This document shows positions 14,981 through 23,611 of a stretch of 36,044 nucleotides of DNA, piece by piece (positions within the stretch are counted from its first letter, which is position 1; the number at the start of each line of letters is the position of its first letter). The translations under genes and the position numbers were made by a program. The notes under the pieces are model-generated. The model had not been told where the DNA came from and made no database searches. It was given only the letters and a program-made list of their open reading frames with translations. Location: NCBI GenBank assembly GCA_024639335.1, contig JAHEIN010000005.1:13230-49273 (forward strand), given 5' to 3'. The DNA comes from a bacterium (GTDB lineage: Bacteria > Actinomycetota > Acidimicrobiia > Spongiisociales > ZC4RG35).

Positions 14981-17008
14981 CTAGAACTCGGCGAGGGCGC
15001 GTGCGCGCTCGGCGATCGAGTCGGGCGTGGGATACATCGCGTCCTCCAGCGAAGTCGCGAACGGCATGATCGGGATGTCGGGCAGGGCGTAGCGCTTCAC
15101 CGGAGCGTCCAACCATCGAAAGGCCTTGTCGGCGATCTGCGCGGCGACTTCGGCCCCGAACCCCATGAACTCGTTGTCCTCATGAACGATGACCACCCGG
15201 CTGGTCTTCGCCACCGACGCCTCGATCGTCGGCCAGTCGAGGGGCTTCAGTGACCGCAGGTCGATCACCTCGGCATCGATACCGTCTTGTTCGAGGATGT
15301 CGGCTGCTTCGACCGAGAAGTGCGCCATCGCGCCGTAGGCGATGATCGTGAGGTCAGAACCCTCCCGCCGCAACGCGGCGCGGCCCAGCGGGACGAGGTG
15401 CTCGCCCTCCGGATACGGGCCTTTGGCGAGCCGATACAGCTTCTTCGGCTCCAGGAAGAGCACCGGGTCAGGATCCTCCATCGCCCCGAACAGCAATCCC
15501 TTCACATCTGCCGGAGTCGAGGGCACGACCACCTTGAGGCCCGGCACATGGGAGTAGAACGCCTCGATCGACTGGGAGTGGTACAGCGCCCCATGGATCC
15601 CCGCGCCATATGGCGTCCTGATCACCATGGGCACCGACCAGCGACCGTCACTCCGGTAGTGGACCCTGGCGACCTCTGAGACGAGCTGGTCGAAGGCGGG
15701 GTGGATGTAGTCGGCGAACTGGATCTCAGGGATCGGGTACATGCCGTAGGCGGCCAATCCGACGGCGCTTCCGATGATCGACGCTTCGGCGAGTGGCGTG
15801 TTGAAGCAGCGGCCCTCGCCGTACCGTTCCGTGAGGCCTTCGGTGGCTTTGAAGACGCCACCCTTCTTCCCACCGACGTCCTCTCCGAAAACGAGCGCTC
15901 GGTCGTAGGCGGCGAGGACCTCGTGCAGTGTTCGATTGACAGCCGTGATCAGATTGACCGCCGAGCCGGCTGGTGGCGGCTCGACTTGCGTTGCCGGCTC
16001 CGGAACGTCGAACTCCCTGGCATAGACCCGCGTCGTCGGCTCGTCGGCGTCGGGAGCTCTCTCAGCCTCCTCGACTGCCCTGGCGAGCTGGCGCTCGACG
16101 TCTTTCTCGATCTCCAGCTCACGCACGTCGGAGAGGAGCCGCTCTTCGATGAGGTACTGCTTCATGGTCACGACGGGATCGTTTCGTCGCCACAGGTCGA
16201 CCTCTTCGCGCGAGCGATAGAGCCTGTCGTCATCGTCGGATGTGTGGGCGTAGTAGCGATACGTCTCGGCCTCGATCAAGCTCGGGCCCTCTCCCCGGCG
16301 AGCTCGATCGACCGCCTTGGACATCGCCGAATACACCCCGAGTGGGTCGTTGCCGTCGATCAGCACGCCGTCGATGCCGTAGCCCTTTGCGCGCTCGTAG
16401 ATTCGTCCGGCTATCTCTTCTTCCATCGGCACCGAGATGGCGTAGCCGTTGTTCTCGATGACGAAGATCAACGGGAGCCGATGGATCCCCGCCCAGTTCA
16501 TCGCTTCGTGCCAGTCACCCTCCGACGTGGAGCCCTCTCCTCCGTAGACGACCACGACGCCGTCACCTCCGTCGTGAGCAATCCCCTGGGCGATCCCGAC
16601 GGCGTGGGGATACTGGGTGCCGATCGTCGACGACTGCGTGAACACTCTCCGGTCCACGTCGGACCAGTGATTGGGGAGCTGGCGTCCCCCGGACATCCGA
16701 TCGCTCTTCTTGGCGAAGACGGCGAGGAACACGTCGAGCACGGGGATCCCCCACGCCAGCGCCACCCCCATGTCGCGGTAGTAGGGCATGATCCAGTCGA
16801 GTTCGGGATCGAGCGGTCCGACGGATGCGACCTGGATGGCTTCGTGTCCTGAGGACCCGACGACGAACGGTGCACGACCTTGCCGGTTCAGGGCGAACAT
16901 CCGGTCGTCCATCTTGCGAGCCAACAGCATCGTCCGGTACAGCTCGATGGCCTGCGCGTCTGTCATCCCGAGATCCCGGTGATCCAGCTCGCGCTTCGCC
17001 CATTTCAT
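14981..17008 (-). CDS. fused alpha/beta dehydrogenase E1 component (2-oxoisovalerate dehydrogenase-like, TPP-dependent)
   Basis: N-terminal E1-alpha (GEGSTSEGDWHEAMNWAG...ENNGYAISVP) followed by E1-beta (FGEDVGGKKGGVFKATEGL...IHEDN region) in one frame. Confidence 0.9.
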   Translation of the reverse strand: MKWAKRELDHRDLGMTDAQAIELYRTMLLARKMDDRMFALNRQGRAPFVVGSSGHEAIQVASVGPLDPELDWIMPYYRDMGVALAWGIPVLDVFLAVFAKKSDRMSGGRQLPNHWSDVDRRVFTQSSTIGTQYPHAVGIAQGIAHDGGDGVVVVYGGEGSTSEGDWHEAMNWAGIHRLPLIFVIENNGYAISVPMEEEIAGRIYERAKGYGIDGVLIDGNDPLGVYSAMSKAVDRARRGEGPSLIEAETYRYYAHTSDDDDRLYRSREEVDLWRRNDPVVTMKQYLIEERLLSDVRELEIEKDVERQLARAVEEAERAPDADEPTTRVYAREFDVPEPATQVEPPPAGSAVNLITAVNRTLHEVLAAYDRALVFGEDVGGKKGGVFKATEGLTERYGEGRCFNTPLAEASIIGSAVGLAAYGMYPIPEIQFADYIHPAFDQLVSEVARVHYRSDGRWSVPMVIRTPYGAGIHGALYHSQSIEAFYSHVPGLKVVVPSTPADVKGLLFGAMEDPDPVLFLEPKKLYRLAKGPYPEGEHLVPLGRAALRREGSDLTIIAYGAMAHFSVEAADILEQDGIDAEVIDLRSLKPLDWPTIEASVAKTSRVVIVHEDNEFMGFGAEVAAQIADKAFRWLDAPVKRYALPDIPIMPFATSLEDAMYPTPDSIAERARALAEF

Positions 17009-17092
17009 TTGCGACGACTCTCTTTCGATCCGCTGTTGTTCACTGTATCCGCACTCGAACACCTTCGACGGTGGTTGGGTAGGGTCGAAAGC

Positions 17093-17848
17093 GTGATCAG
17101 AACGGCCAACCTCCGTGTCTATCTCGAAGAGGCTGCGGTCGCCGTGCGGGGTCTGCCCGAGGCCCCCACTCAGCTCGGGTCGCCGATGTCCGTGGGGGTG
17201 GCGTTGACCATGGAGCGGTCGGGTGATGACGCCTACACCACCGAGTGGCGCGGCAACGTGTATCGGTGCCCGCGCACGCCCATGGTCCGGATGCTCGAGG
17301 GGCTGCTGGCGCTTCGAGCTGCCAGCTCACAGTTGGGTCCTCCGCTGTTCCCTCAGTCGACCGTCGACGATGCACGCGATCGGCTTCAGCTGCTGAAGCA
17401 GAGCGAGACCGGAGTTGCCCACATCCTCACATCTGCTTGGCACGTCCCCATGCGGTGGTTCGTGCCGTTCGCCCCCGACCAACGCGAGCTGGTCGATTGG
17501 CCCGAGACGAGCATTCGCTATCGCCAGCTCGTGGGCGAGGGTCTCGGACGTCTCGACGATGCGATCGAGATACTCGAGGGCTCTGAGATCCCGCCCGCCA
17601 TCGCGGCCGAGGTGCAGGAGCTGCGGTCGTGGCTCGGTGATTTCCCCCCGTCTGCCATGCTGGAACTCGACTACGGCTCGGTTGCCCGATTCTTCGTCGA
17701 GACCGAGCTGGTGCTGGACGAATCCGTCGCCGACCTGTGGGGCTCGCTCGACGCCCTGTCCGCCTGCGATTGGAAGGCGGCCGGTGACCGCTACGGCGCC
17801 CTCGTCGAACGCTGGGCCCTCCCCATGGCCATCGCCTACTCGAATTGA
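17093..17848 (+). CDS. hypothetical protein (251 aa)
   Basis: GTG start after promoter-like region; no recognised domain; codon usage consistent with real CDS. Confidence 0.65.
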   Translation: MIRTANLRVYLEEAAVAVRGLPEAPTQLGSPMSVGVALTMERSGDDAYTTEWRGNVYRCPRTPMVRMLEGLLALRAASSQLGPPLFPQSTVDDARDRLQLLKQSETGVAHILTSAWHVPMRWFVPFAPDQRELVDWPETSIRYRQLVGEGLGRLDDAIEILEGSEIPPAIAAEVQELRSWLGDFPPSAMLELDYGSVARFFVETELVLDESVADLWGSLDALSACDWKAAGDRYGALVERWALPMAIAYSN

Positions 17849-17980
17849 ATGCCGTCCGACCTTCGGACAGAAGCATGGTCGGCCAGGGGATTCACGACTC
17901 CGAAACAGACGCGGGTCGGCCGGGCTGCCGCCGCGTGATGCGGTCGACTTTCAGCTCTCAGGCTCCCCGTTGGGGGACAG

Positions 17981-19162
17981 CTAGGCGAACGCGTTGAGGC
18001 CGGTGATGGAGTTGCCGAGGATGAGGGTGTGGATCTCGTTGGTGCCCTCGTAGGTGGAGACGGTCTCGAGGTTGGCCATGTGGCGGAACACCGGGTACTC
18101 GAGCGTGATGCCGTTGCCACCAAGGATCGAGCGGGCGGTCCGGGCGGTTTCCAGGGCGTTGCGGACGTTGTCCATCTTCCCGAAGCTGATCTGCTCGGGC
18201 GTGAGCGCCCCGGCGTCCTTCATCCGACCCAGATGTAGAGCCACGAGCATTCCCCGGTTGACTGCAACCATCATGTCCACGAGTTTCCGCTGGGTCAGCT
18301 GGAAGCCGGCGATCGGACGATCGAACTGGGTGCGCTCGCCGGCGTAGGTCAACGCCGCCTCGTAGCAGGCGCGTCCCGCCCCGATGGCGCCGAACAGGAT
18401 CCCGAAGCGCGCTTCGTTGAGACACGAAAGCGGGCCGCGCATCGAAGAGACATCGGGCAGCGCGAAGTCCTCGGGGATCCGCACGTCGGAGAACGCCAAC
18501 TCCGCCGTCACCGATGCCCGGAGACTGGCCTTGTGCTCGATCGCCTGGGACTCGAACCCCTTCGAGTCGGTTGGGACGATGAACCCGCGGATGCCCTCAT
18601 CGGTCCGGGCCCACACGAGGGCGATGTCGGCGATGGTGCCGTTGGTGATCCACATCTTGGACCCGTTGAGAATCCAGTCCGATCCGGCGCGTCTGGCGTT
18701 GGTGCGCATCGACGACGGGTCGGATCCAGAGTCGGCCTCCGTCAGCCCGAAGCACCCGATCACCTCTCCGGCGGCCATCTGTGGCAGCCAGGTCTGCTTC
18801 TGCTCTTCGGAACCGAACTTCCAGATCGGGAACATCGACAGCGAGCCCTGTACCGACATGAAGCTGCGGACGCCCGAGTCGCCGTACTCGAGTTCGGTAC
18901 AGGCCAGCCCGTAGGCGACGTTGGATGTCCCTGCGCAGCCGTAACCCTCGAGATGCATCCCGAACAGCCCCATCGCCGCCATCTCCTTGGCGACCTCACG
19001 TGGGAAGACGCCGTCCTCCCACCATTCGCCGATATCGGGCAGGATGCGGTCGGCGACGAACTGGCGGACCGTGTTCCGGAGCATGATCTCCTCTTCGTCG
19101 AGCAGCGAGTCGACTGCGAGAAAGTCGGTGGGCGAGGGACGGACGAAGCTCAGCTCGGACAT
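17981..19162 (-). CDS. acyl-CoA dehydrogenase (glutaryl-CoA dehydrogenase-like)
   Basis: CFGLTEADSGSDPSSMRT, KMWITNGTIADIALVWA, YEGTNEIHTLILG motifs. Confidence 0.9.
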   Translation of the reverse strand: MSELSFVRPSPTDFLAVDSLLDEEEIMLRNTVRQFVADRILPDIGEWWEDGVFPREVAKEMAAMGLFGMHLEGYGCAGTSNVAYGLACTELEYGDSGVRSFMSVQGSLSMFPIWKFGSEEQKQTWLPQMAAGEVIGCFGLTEADSGSDPSSMRTNARRAGSDWILNGSKMWITNGTIADIALVWARTDEGIRGFIVPTDSKGFESQAIEHKASLRASVTAELAFSDVRIPEDFALPDVSSMRGPLSCLNEARFGILFGAIGAGRACYEAALTYAGERTQFDRPIAGFQLTQRKLVDMMVAVNRGMLVALHLGRMKDAGALTPEQISFGKMDNVRNALETARTARSILGGNGITLEYPVFRHMANLETVSTYEGTNEIHTLILGNSITGLNAFA

Positions 19163-19197
19163 ACGGTCATTCTCGCACACCCGCCGTCACGCCAGCG

Positions 19198-19247
19198 AAC
19201 CCAGGGTTGCTCACCGGGATTATTCCGGATTTGAGTGCGAGGTTCGC
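19198..19247 (+). repeat. 50-bp inverted repeat, left copy
   Basis: aacccagggttgctcaccgggattattccggatttgagtgcgaggttcgc; 45/50 identical to reverse complement of 20471-20520. Confidence 0.95.
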
Positions 19248-19251
19248 CTAT

Positions 19252-20436
19252 TCATCGGGTGCCGATCACACCGAACAACGCACCCGGCCATTGCAGCTGG
19301 GTCACCTCTCCCGTTTCGATGTCCAGGATCGCGATCACCGATCGCGGTCGGGAAACCGGATCTGGCTGGGGGACGGCGACGAAGCGGTCCCCATCCAGCC
19401 AGCTCATGGCACCGGGCTTGGCCAAGTCGGTGCCGGCGCGGGAAGTGAACGTGAGCGTGGTCGGATCGATGTCGAGGACCTCGACCCTGGTCGACGTCGC
19501 CGTTCCGCAGAGTACTGCGAGACGGAGGGACGGCGCTCGCCTCGAGTCAGATCGGGCGAACCTGGCATCACTGCATGGTCCGTCGCCTGCAGGAATCGGA
19601 GCGCTGGGTACGAGGTCGCGGTCAACGAGCGTCAACGATTCATCGACCCAGACCACCGCCCATCCGTCCGTGGCGGCCACGAATTCGGCACCGGCCAACC
19701 TGGCGGCCTCGCTCCCGTCTGGTTGGAGGGAGATGATCGATCCACCCGATGTGATGGTGAGACGGTCGCGTTCGAGCCATACAACGCGTGCGTCGTCGGG
19801 AACGGGAATCGCAAAGGGCTGGAAGACAATATCGCGCCCCATGGTCTGTTCAAATGCAATCGTCCCCGCTGCGGTCCGTTCGGTCCAAACGATTCGACCC
19901 GGCTGGTCTGCCGACCACACGGCGCTGCCGACGTCTGTTGCGACCGCCTCCTGGTATGCGGAGTTGCCGATGTGGAGGTTGCTCGAATCACCGTATCGTT
20001 GACTCACCAATGCCGCGATCCACTGACCGGAAGTATCGGCGATCGCCCGTCCGAACGGCACATCGATCGTTCTTGGCTCGATTGCGTTGATGAACCACTG
20101 CTGGATGACGGCCTGGCCGCTCGGCGTGAATCCGAATGCGACCAGATCTGAGGTGAGGCCCGGCACTCGCTCGGCCAGGGTGGGTGGAGGTCGGACGGTC
20201 GCCGGTGTGGCTACGACGACGGGCGGTGCCTCGAGTGACGTGTCTTCCTGTGCGACCGTCGTTTCGGTCGTTGCTTCGCGGGGGGTCAGCAGAGACACGG
20301 CAGCGGCGCCGACCAACACCCCGATGGCGCCGGCCGCGAGGAGCGTCCACCCCGAGTCACGGCGCCGCCAAGTGTCTGGCGATCTCCCCGCCTGCTCCGC
20401 CCCGGTGACCTCGATCTGCCGTTCCATGGTCGCCAT
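19252..20436 (-). CDS. membrane-anchored protein of unknown function with extracytoplasmic (possibly beta-propeller-like) domain
   Basis: MATMERQ... then TM segment WTLLAAGAIGVLVGAAAVSLL; start at 20436 or 20427; the longer ORF to 21246 is antisense to the ABC gene. Confidence 0.75.
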   Translation of the reverse strand: MATMERQIEVTGAEQAGRSPDTWRRRDSGWTLLAAGAIGVLVGAAAVSLLTPREATTETTVAQEDTSLEAPPVVVATPATVRPPPTLAERVPGLTSDLVAFGFTPSGQAVIQQWFINAIEPRTIDVPFGRAIADTSGQWIAALVSQRYGDSSNLHIGNSAYQEAVATDVGSAVWSADQPGRIVWTERTAAGTIAFEQTMGRDIVFQPFAIPVPDDARVVWLERDRLTITSGGSIISLQPDGSEAARLAGAEFVAATDGWAVVWVDESLTLVDRDLVPSAPIPAGDGPCSDARFARSDSRRAPSLRLAVLCGTATSTRVEVLDIDPTTLTFTSRAGTDLAKPGAMSWLDGDRFVAVPQPDPVSRPRSVIAILDIETGEVTQLQWPGALFGVIGTR

Positions 20437-20470
20437 TATCCCGAATCCGGCGATATCGACGCCTTCGATT

Positions 20471-20520
20471 GCGAACTTCGCGCTGAGATCCGGAATAATC
20501 CCGGTGAGTAACCCTGGGTT
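20471..20520 (-). repeat. 50-bp inverted repeat, right copy
   Basis: gcgaacttcgcgctgagatccggaataatcccggtgagtaaccctgggtt; inverted relative to 19198-19247. Confidence 0.95.
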
Positions 20521-20556
20521 GAGGGAGAGGCCGGGCCCTGCGCTAGCTTGGCCCCG

Positions 20557-21324
20557 ATGGAAGTGCCGGCCGTCTCCTACGACGGGTTGACCAAGCGGTT
20601 CGCAGACACGCTCGCAGTGGACGATGTCACCATCGATATCCCACTGGGGTCGTTCTTCGGGATCGTCGGCCCGAACGGCGCCGGCAAGACCACGATGCTG
20701 CGAATGACGACCGGGCTCCTCCGCCCCGACGCCGGCACCGTGAGTATCGCCGGTCATGACGTGTGGGAGGATCCCGCCACGGCCAAGACCCGGTTCGGTG
20801 TAGTGCCCGACAACCCAAGCATGTTCGAGCGACTCACCGGGCGCGAGCTCATCGAGTTCAACGGGATGATGCGCGGCATGGACACCGATGTGATCGCCCA
20901 GCGGCGCGAGTCGCTCCTGCGCCTGCTCGACCTCACAGAGGCCGGTGACACGATCGTGGCCGACTACAGCCTCGGGATGACCAAGAAGATCGCCATTGCC
21001 TGTGCATTGCTCCACAATCCGTCGGTCCTGTTCCTCGACGAGCCGTTCGCCGGGGTCGACCCTGTTGCCCGGCAGACGCTCGAGCAGATCTTGCGCCGCC
21101 ACATCAACGGTGGTGGCACGGTCGTGTTCTCCGACCACGCCATGGACGTCGTTGAGCGGCTCTGTGATCGGATCATGGTGATCGACCACGGAACGGTGCT
21201 TACAACCGGGTCGACCGAAGAGATCACCGGCGGGCGCCGCCTCCAAGACGTCTTCGTCGAGATGGTCGGCGCCCAGATCACCGAGGAAGGGGACCTCGAG
21301 TGGCTCGGGTCTTCGCCCGGCTGA
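20557..21324 (+). CDS. ABC transporter ATP-binding protein
   Basis: GPNGAGKTTMLRM Walker A; YSLGMTKKIAIACALLHNPSVLFLDEPF signature/Walker B. Confidence 0.95.
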   Translation: MEVPAVSYDGLTKRFADTLAVDDVTIDIPLGSFFGIVGPNGAGKTTMLRMTTGLLRPDAGTVSIAGHDVWEDPATAKTRFGVVPDNPSMFERLTGRELIEFNGMMRGMDTDVIAQRRESLLRLLDLTEAGDTIVADYSLGMTKKIAIACALLHNPSVLFLDEPFAGVDPVARQTLEQILRRHINGGGTVVFSDHAMDVVERLCDRIMVIDHGTVLTTGSTEEITGGRRLQDVFVEMVGAQITEEGDLEWLGSSPG

Positions 21325-22930: not shown

Positions 22931-23611
22931 CTAGGTGTCCGCTTCTGGACGACTGGCTGCAAGGACAGCCTCGAGGGGGTGAGGCAACGTGTCGAGCCCG
23001 ATCGTGAGTGTGAGAAGTTGGGCGTATCGCAGGTTGCGGCGCGCACCGGCGCGGAGCCATCGGTGGAATTGCTCGTCGAATGCACCACCACGCCAGGCCG
23101 GCTGGCGCTGAAGGGTGCGGAACGAGGTGAGGTCGCCTTGGGAAGCGAGAACACGCTCGATCTCTTCTCGACCGGACGCCCGAATCAACTCGTGCTCGAG
23201 GTCATCGATGCATACGAAGAAGCCGAGCTCTGCGAGATCGGCTCGACTCTGCGGTGAGCCCATCCCAGCCATCTCGAGACTGTGTCGGAACAGCGGCTCC
23301 TCGGCTGCGTCGCACAGCCCGGCGATCGGCAGACGCCTTCCTCGCGGACCGAATCTGTCGAGATGGCGCGGGAGCTCATGGGCGCCTCCCATCGGCACCA
23401 CGACAACACGCTCCTTCTCTAGATCCCTTCCAAGGCGGGGCGCGACGGTCTCGAGTGCGATCTGGTCGCTGATTCCTTCGACCAACACCACTGCCCGGGC
23501 AGTTCTCGCTCGCTCGAGGGCAGCTGCGGTGGCATGGACCGGGGCTCCCGGGCCACTGAAGAAGCCGTGGGGAGCCTCGCGGGCCAATCGGCGTTGGTTG
23601 TCTCTGTTCAT
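22931..23611 (-). CDS. stand-alone TOPRIM (OLD-type) nucleotidyl transferase/hydrolase domain protein
   Basis: VVLVEGISDQIALETVA...VVVPMGGAHEL...IAGLCDAAEEPLFR TOPRIM-type motifs; no ATPase domain. Confidence 0.8.
   Translation of the reverse strand: MNRDNQRRLAREAPHGFFSGPGAPVHATAAALERARTARAVVLVEGISDQIALETVAPRLGRDLEKERVVVVPMGGAHELPRHLDRFGPRGRRLPIAGLCDAAEEPLFRHSLEMAGMGSPQSRADLAELGFFVCIDDLEHELIRASGREEIERVLASQGDLTSFRTLQRQPAWRGGAFDEQFHRWLRAGARRNLRYAQLLTLTIGLDTLPHPLEAVLAASRPEADT

Follow-up and report, generated by a model that had tools for sequence, protein, structure and literature searches.

Two 50-nt arms at 19198-19247 and 20471-20520 form an inverted repeat in the window (the whole 36,044-nt stretch of Acidimicrobiia DNA analyzed here), being 90% complementary (45/50) and 1223 nt apart. 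The pair, including the degree of matching given in the original prediction, was recovered by a repeat search, and a 32-nt core of the repeat occurred twice in the window but not at all in 100 shuffles. By profile, each copy extends over ~53 nt (19195-19247 and 20471-20523). The copies and the genes around them are arranged as follows:

17981..19162, minus strand: acyl-CoA dehydrogenase gene, with ~36 nt separating its start codon from the left-copy box
19195..19247, minus strand: left copy of a dispersed palindromic element, with box AACCCAGGGTT at 19198-19208, hairpin core CCGGGATTATTCCGG and, toward P0001 at its inner end, a second box that is degenerate
19252..20436, minus strand: P0001, 394 aa, without family match, neighbor of the acyl-CoA dehydrogenase gene
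20471..20523, plus strand: right copy of that element in inverted orientation, with box AACCCTGGGTT at 20510-20520 and the box ends outward
20557..21324, plus strand: ABC transporter ATPase gene, with ~36 nt separating the right-copy box from its start codon

The P0001 coding sequence is an open frame that ends 4 nt from the left repeat and starts 34 nt from the right one, the same distances as originally reported. It could not be assigned to a family, as no match was obtained in Pfam, NCBIfam or PADLOC; its sequence predicts a membrane-anchored protein, possibly of beta-propeller-like fold. As had also been remarked before, no target-site duplication is visible at the site. No recombinase gene adjoins P0001 or lies nearby. 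A search of the window for a decayed third box at the distal end of the acyl-CoA dehydrogenase gene gave nothing above chance. An OLD-like TOPRIM domain gene (22931-23611) adjoins the ABC exporter genes.

The pair had originally been explained as a non-autonomous cassette, as the product of recombinase-driven inversion or as two copies of a dispersed intergenic repeat. A genome-wide search, as recommended at the time, agrees with the last of these: with up to 3 mismatches allowed, the 32-nt core has 13 matches in the 3.2-Mb, 296-contig genome (reversed control, 0), and a profile search found 17 copies at E≤0.01 and 19 at E≤1. The window repeats are thus members of a dispersed family and not the private ends of a cassette. 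The sister species G001, of the same genus, likewise has 17 profile matches at E≤0.01. The palindrome family is species-specific, with ~17 copies in the genome under study (G000).

The consensus element of ~53 nt, CGAACCTCGCGCnGAGATCCGGAATAATCCCGTTGAGGAACCCTGGGTTCGC, is built as box, variable hairpin, box, in which the box AACCCTGGGTT is an invariant, dimer-type palindrome; in double-box elements the boxes are spaced by 35-36 nt, usually 36 nt. Neither a GTAG nor a CGTC tag stands beside the hairpin in the consensus element. Copies are intergenic; several overlap a stop codon, separate two convergent genes or sit on the downstream side of a gene. Exact AACCCTGGGTT boxes number 0-76 per family genome, with 0-3 for the reversed control. 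In a set drawn from six genomes, with one or two copies per genome, hairpin pairing is preserved by two-sided changes (81.6% of cells paired), and the covariation score of this set is 0.342, versus 0.140 upon shuffling and at most 0.156 when the pairing is slid. In Micromonospora, the palindrome TTGATCAAGnAGTTTG is also dispersed, with up to 33 matches per genome (control, 0), often paired 43 nt apart.

A second inverted pair, on contig C171 of G000 and C79 of G001, encloses a homologue of ~300-aa proteins that are themselves enclosed by boxes ~1035 bp apart in genomes G015 and G025. These bracketed proteins match AbiEi_4 and MTES_1575/DUF559 in Pfam, mostly slightly under the curated cut-offs, and AbiEi in PADLOC. 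A profile of 32 sequences matched PDB entries 3hrl (2e-7) and 3r3p, the homing endonuclease I-Bth0305I (E 6e-4). An AlphaFold model (pLDDT 93) matched the AbiEi antitoxin 6y8q (6e-6), and its TM scores were 0.66-0.75 on the target for 3r3p, 0.79 for 3hrl and 0.47 for Vsr (1vsr). Residues E202, D233 and H251 are invariant in all 32 sequences and E244 and D246 are kept in 31, as expected of an active EDxHD site. Judged by profile and modeled fold, the protein is a predicted nuclease of the Vsr/EDxHD fold group, in which an AbiEi-like N-terminus is joined to a Vsr-fold/EDxHD homing-endonuclease domain.

Most nuclease genes in the family genomes carry inverted palindromes at both ends, either with the AACCCTGGGTT box or with clade-specific boxes such as AACCTCAGGTT, ACCTAAGGT or TTCTGTG...CACAGAA, and inverted bracketing is also seen at the nuclease genes of G016, G026 and G012. 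We quantified this association at 80 named loci from public genomes of Actinomycetota, with same-sized intervals in the same loci as controls. Strong flanking inverted repeats were present at 44 of 61 testable nuclease genes versus 2 of 396 control intervals (Fisher p ~1e-44, for loci that are not phylogenetically independent and with a few matches of low complexity); 17 of the 61 nuclease genes of the subfamily were without detectable bracketing repeats. The box sequence follows the nuclease clade: the three box classes can be placed on the nuclease tree with 3 changes, and none of 200 shuffles was as low. Two Micromonospora rows in this test seem to have been mislabeled by the search pattern, so that the true fit to the tree is probably better. 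Among the 34 family genomes, all 14 box-rich genomes (more than 8 exact box matches) had a nuclease match of at least 230 bits, as opposed to 5 of the 20 box-poor ones (p ~1e-5). In genus g8, G027 has both box and nuclease, and G022 and G008 have neither.

Joint presence and absence can be followed at one site. On contig C92 of G015, a box-nuclease-box unit lies between a DUF885-like gene and a LysM/M23-like gene; on C18 of its congener G025, the same two genes have neither nuclease nor box between them. This is the one such pair found, and no target duplication can be read at the empty site, where the flanks are only ~73% identical. Elsewhere, the C162 copy of G000 was discarded as a clean empty-site comparison because another small reading frame fills the orthologous gap in G001 and makes a footprint unreadable, and no empty site was obtained for the C96 nuclease of G025, as a nuclease occupies the corresponding place in G015. 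Between congeners, nuclease copies keep their positions at several sites, and movement must therefore be slow.

Several individual loci deserve mention. At L130 (G025, C96:56599-57493), the bracketed nuclease is interrupted by stop codons and frame changes, with its repeats still in place; an unbroken copy occupies the same place in G015 (C49). The nuclease gene at L145 (G016, C285) has a double box at each end, 35 nt apart, and its two ends match best as direct repeats. Records L201, L174 and L177, titled Bifidobacterium breve or Acidobacteria, hold nuclease loci of actinobacterial type, and their titles are probably wrong. Many bracketing palindromes from several nuclease clades end in GTTCTG/CAGAAC (flanks of L139, L140, L165, L173, L180, L205 and L225), for example CAGCCCACAGAAC just inside the AACCCTGGGTT box in G015/G025 and CCGTTCTGGCTCC in L225; this motif is a possible shared recognition end.

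At ~10 positions a copy lies between the same genes in both G000 and G001, including both flanks of P0001 and both flanks of the second bracketed gene (C171 in G000, C79 in G001). Identity among copies is 0.80 and 0.81 within the two genomes, while orthologous positions share 0.67, the same as random between-genome pairs, and the hairpin is of the CCGG type in G000 copies and of the CCACA/TGTGG type in G001 copies. Copy positions are thus conserved, and sequences turn over in concert within each genome.

Taken as a whole, the arrangement resembles that of REPtrons (TnpA_REP/RAYT; PMC8266576, PMC3733652), in which an enzyme gene is bordered by inverted palindromes, further copies of them are scattered through intergenic DNA, frequently at the 3' ends of genes, and the palindromes are species-specific and matched to the enzyme. 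Both the dispersed intergenic palindromes and the enzyme gene bordered by its own palindrome (44/61 versus 2/396) are found here. However, the enzyme is an AbiEi-like protein with a predicted Vsr-fold nuclease domain instead of an HUH Y1 transposase, RAYT genes are absent, and the elements are ~50-60 bp long, with two boxes and no GTAG tag. The system works like a REPtron yet is not one, lacking both the GTAG tag and the transposase that defines REPtrons.

We consider it likely that the window repeats belong to a REPtron-like repeat/nuclease system in which a homing-type nuclease takes the place of the HUH transposase and would drive the spread of the repeats. Inverted copies of the cognate palindrome flank the nuclease genes, and single copies of it are scattered in the genome. 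The AbiEi-like DNA-binding part of the nuclease would recognize the palindrome; it would probably do so as a dimer, given the symmetry of the boxes and the dimerization of I-Bth0305I on its target, which spans almost 60 bp (PMC3943268). A nick or cut at or near the palindrome would then be made by the EDxHD domain, and repair from another copy would carry the element to new places and overwrite and homogenize old copies, in a homing-like manner. The bracketing of such nuclease genes by elements of this kind across actinobacteria suggests that the repeat plus its nuclease constitutes a little-recognized class of selfish system.

The strongest rival to nuclease-driven spread, which we nevertheless regard as unlikely, is that the palindromes are operators. 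On this reading, the AbiEi-like protein, or a different dimeric regulator, would act at AACCCTGGGTT-type sites to repress a regulon along with its own gene, and the sites would co-evolve with the DNA-binding domain. AbiEi antitoxins autoregulate, the box is invariant and of the dimer type, and both window boxes lie ~36 nt upstream of start codons, those of the acyl-CoA dehydrogenase and ABC ATPase genes. A co-evolving regulon would also give concerted change at fixed positions, which is compatible with a co-evolving binding site no less than with repair-driven conversion. Other observations are harder to reconcile with operators: further copies lie between convergent genes, over stop codons or downstream of genes, nuclease genes have copies at both ends and not upstream alone, repeats and gene are gained or lost together (C92 of G015 versus C18 of G025), and the inter-box hairpin stays paired while its sequence changes.

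That P0001 is a mobile or invertible cassette with the two repeats as its ends appears improbable. What stands of this idea is the pairing: inverted pairs within ~1.3 kb are well above chance, which we estimate at ~0.1 per genome for 17 copies in 3.2 Mb, and the pairs that bracket a gene (P0001, the nuclease and, in G001, an MBL-fold gene) always have their boxes outward. As for an insertion sequence or MITE, inverted repeats are present, but neither the window site nor the diverged empty site shows a duplication. The relatives weaken the remainder. In G001, an orthologue of P0001 (69% identical) keeps the same orientation to both neighbors, with both repeats present, which, along with the lack of a nearby recombinase, speaks against recombinase-driven inversion. 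Homologues with 26-28% identity in G003 and G019, of another genus, lie tail to tail with an acyl-CoA dehydrogenase gene and have no box, and G005 has a partial homologue a few genes away. Synteny or constant presence of the gene in relatives, named at the outset as evidence against a cassette, is thereby observed in part. The argD flank seemed to offer a further comparison, as G001 (C92; L086:7225-8115) has the order repeat, MBL-fold gene, repeat, 708-aa gene, and G000 (C289; L081:8188-8237) has a single repeat; however, a second gene differs as well, so that with two genes differing there is no clean empty site. Given the synteny in G001, the neighbors in G003/G019 and the unclean argD site, the cassette and inversion readings are not supported.

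P0001 instead looks like a resident gene, because its homologues in a third genus adjoin acyl-CoA dehydrogenase without repeats and the site is the same in the sister species; it would be a bystander lying between two copies and not cargo. Given the arrangement in G003/G019, and partly in G005, the gene order E1, acyl-CoA dehydrogenase, P0001 seems to predate the repeats. In the region 14981-19162 of the window, the acyl-CoA dehydrogenase gene has the opposite orientation to E1 and P0001 from that in G005 and G003, which suggests that part of this region was inverted in this genus.

Ordinary REP elements moved by RAYT, a Y1/HUH transposase, would have the same architecture of palindrome-bordered gene and dispersed copies (PMC8266576, PMC3733652) but are highly improbable, and RAYT was ruled out as mobilizer for the family, because Y1_Tnp (PF01797) is absent from 33 of the 34 family genomes, the match in the remaining one being partial, and the bracketed enzyme has a different fold.

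The nuclease-driven system we favor shares single features with other known systems. With the EDxHD homing endonucleases (I-Bth0305I, PDB 3r3p; PMC3943268) it has in common the catalytic domain, by profile and fold, and the conserved E-D-ExD-H set; unlike them, the nuclease lies outside an intron or host gene, has an AbiEi-like N-terminus and comes with its own dispersed palindromes. The N-terminal half resembles, again by profile and fold, AbiEi of the type IV toxin-antitoxin system AbiE (PDB 6y8q), from which the present protein differs by a C-terminal nuclease in the same chain and by dispersed repeats. CGTC-tagged REPs are likewise dispersed intergenic palindromes, reportedly without a dedicated transposase and explicitly left without a partner enzyme (PMC3733652), but the Acidimicrobiia repeats lack the CGTC tag. 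In open-access papers, we found no link of DUF559/MTES_1575/AbiEi nucleases to dispersed palindromes, and the combination of repeat and AbiEi/EDxHD nuclease is probably new.

REP-type palindromes are widespread and, to our knowledge, have a known partner enzyme only where they are paired with a Y1 transposase. More tentatively, the window system might represent a phylum-wide class of selfish repeat systems in Actinomycetota, in which AbiEi-EDxHD nucleases spread and homogenize ~50-bp palindromes by cut-and-repair, independently of a transposase; related nucleases may then be the missing enzymes of orphan REPs such as the CGTC REPs. AbiEi/DUF559-type proteins are common in actinobacteria, match AbiE defense profiles and are usually annotated as unknown or as antitoxins. 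A palindrome-linked, co-varying nuclease family is a candidate driver of REP-type repeats from a different enzyme class, and it would supply a function for the AbiEi/DUF559-type proteins. Concerted evolution at fixed positions would constitute direct evidence that repair drives conversion, and this could be tested in Micromonospora, which is cultivable.
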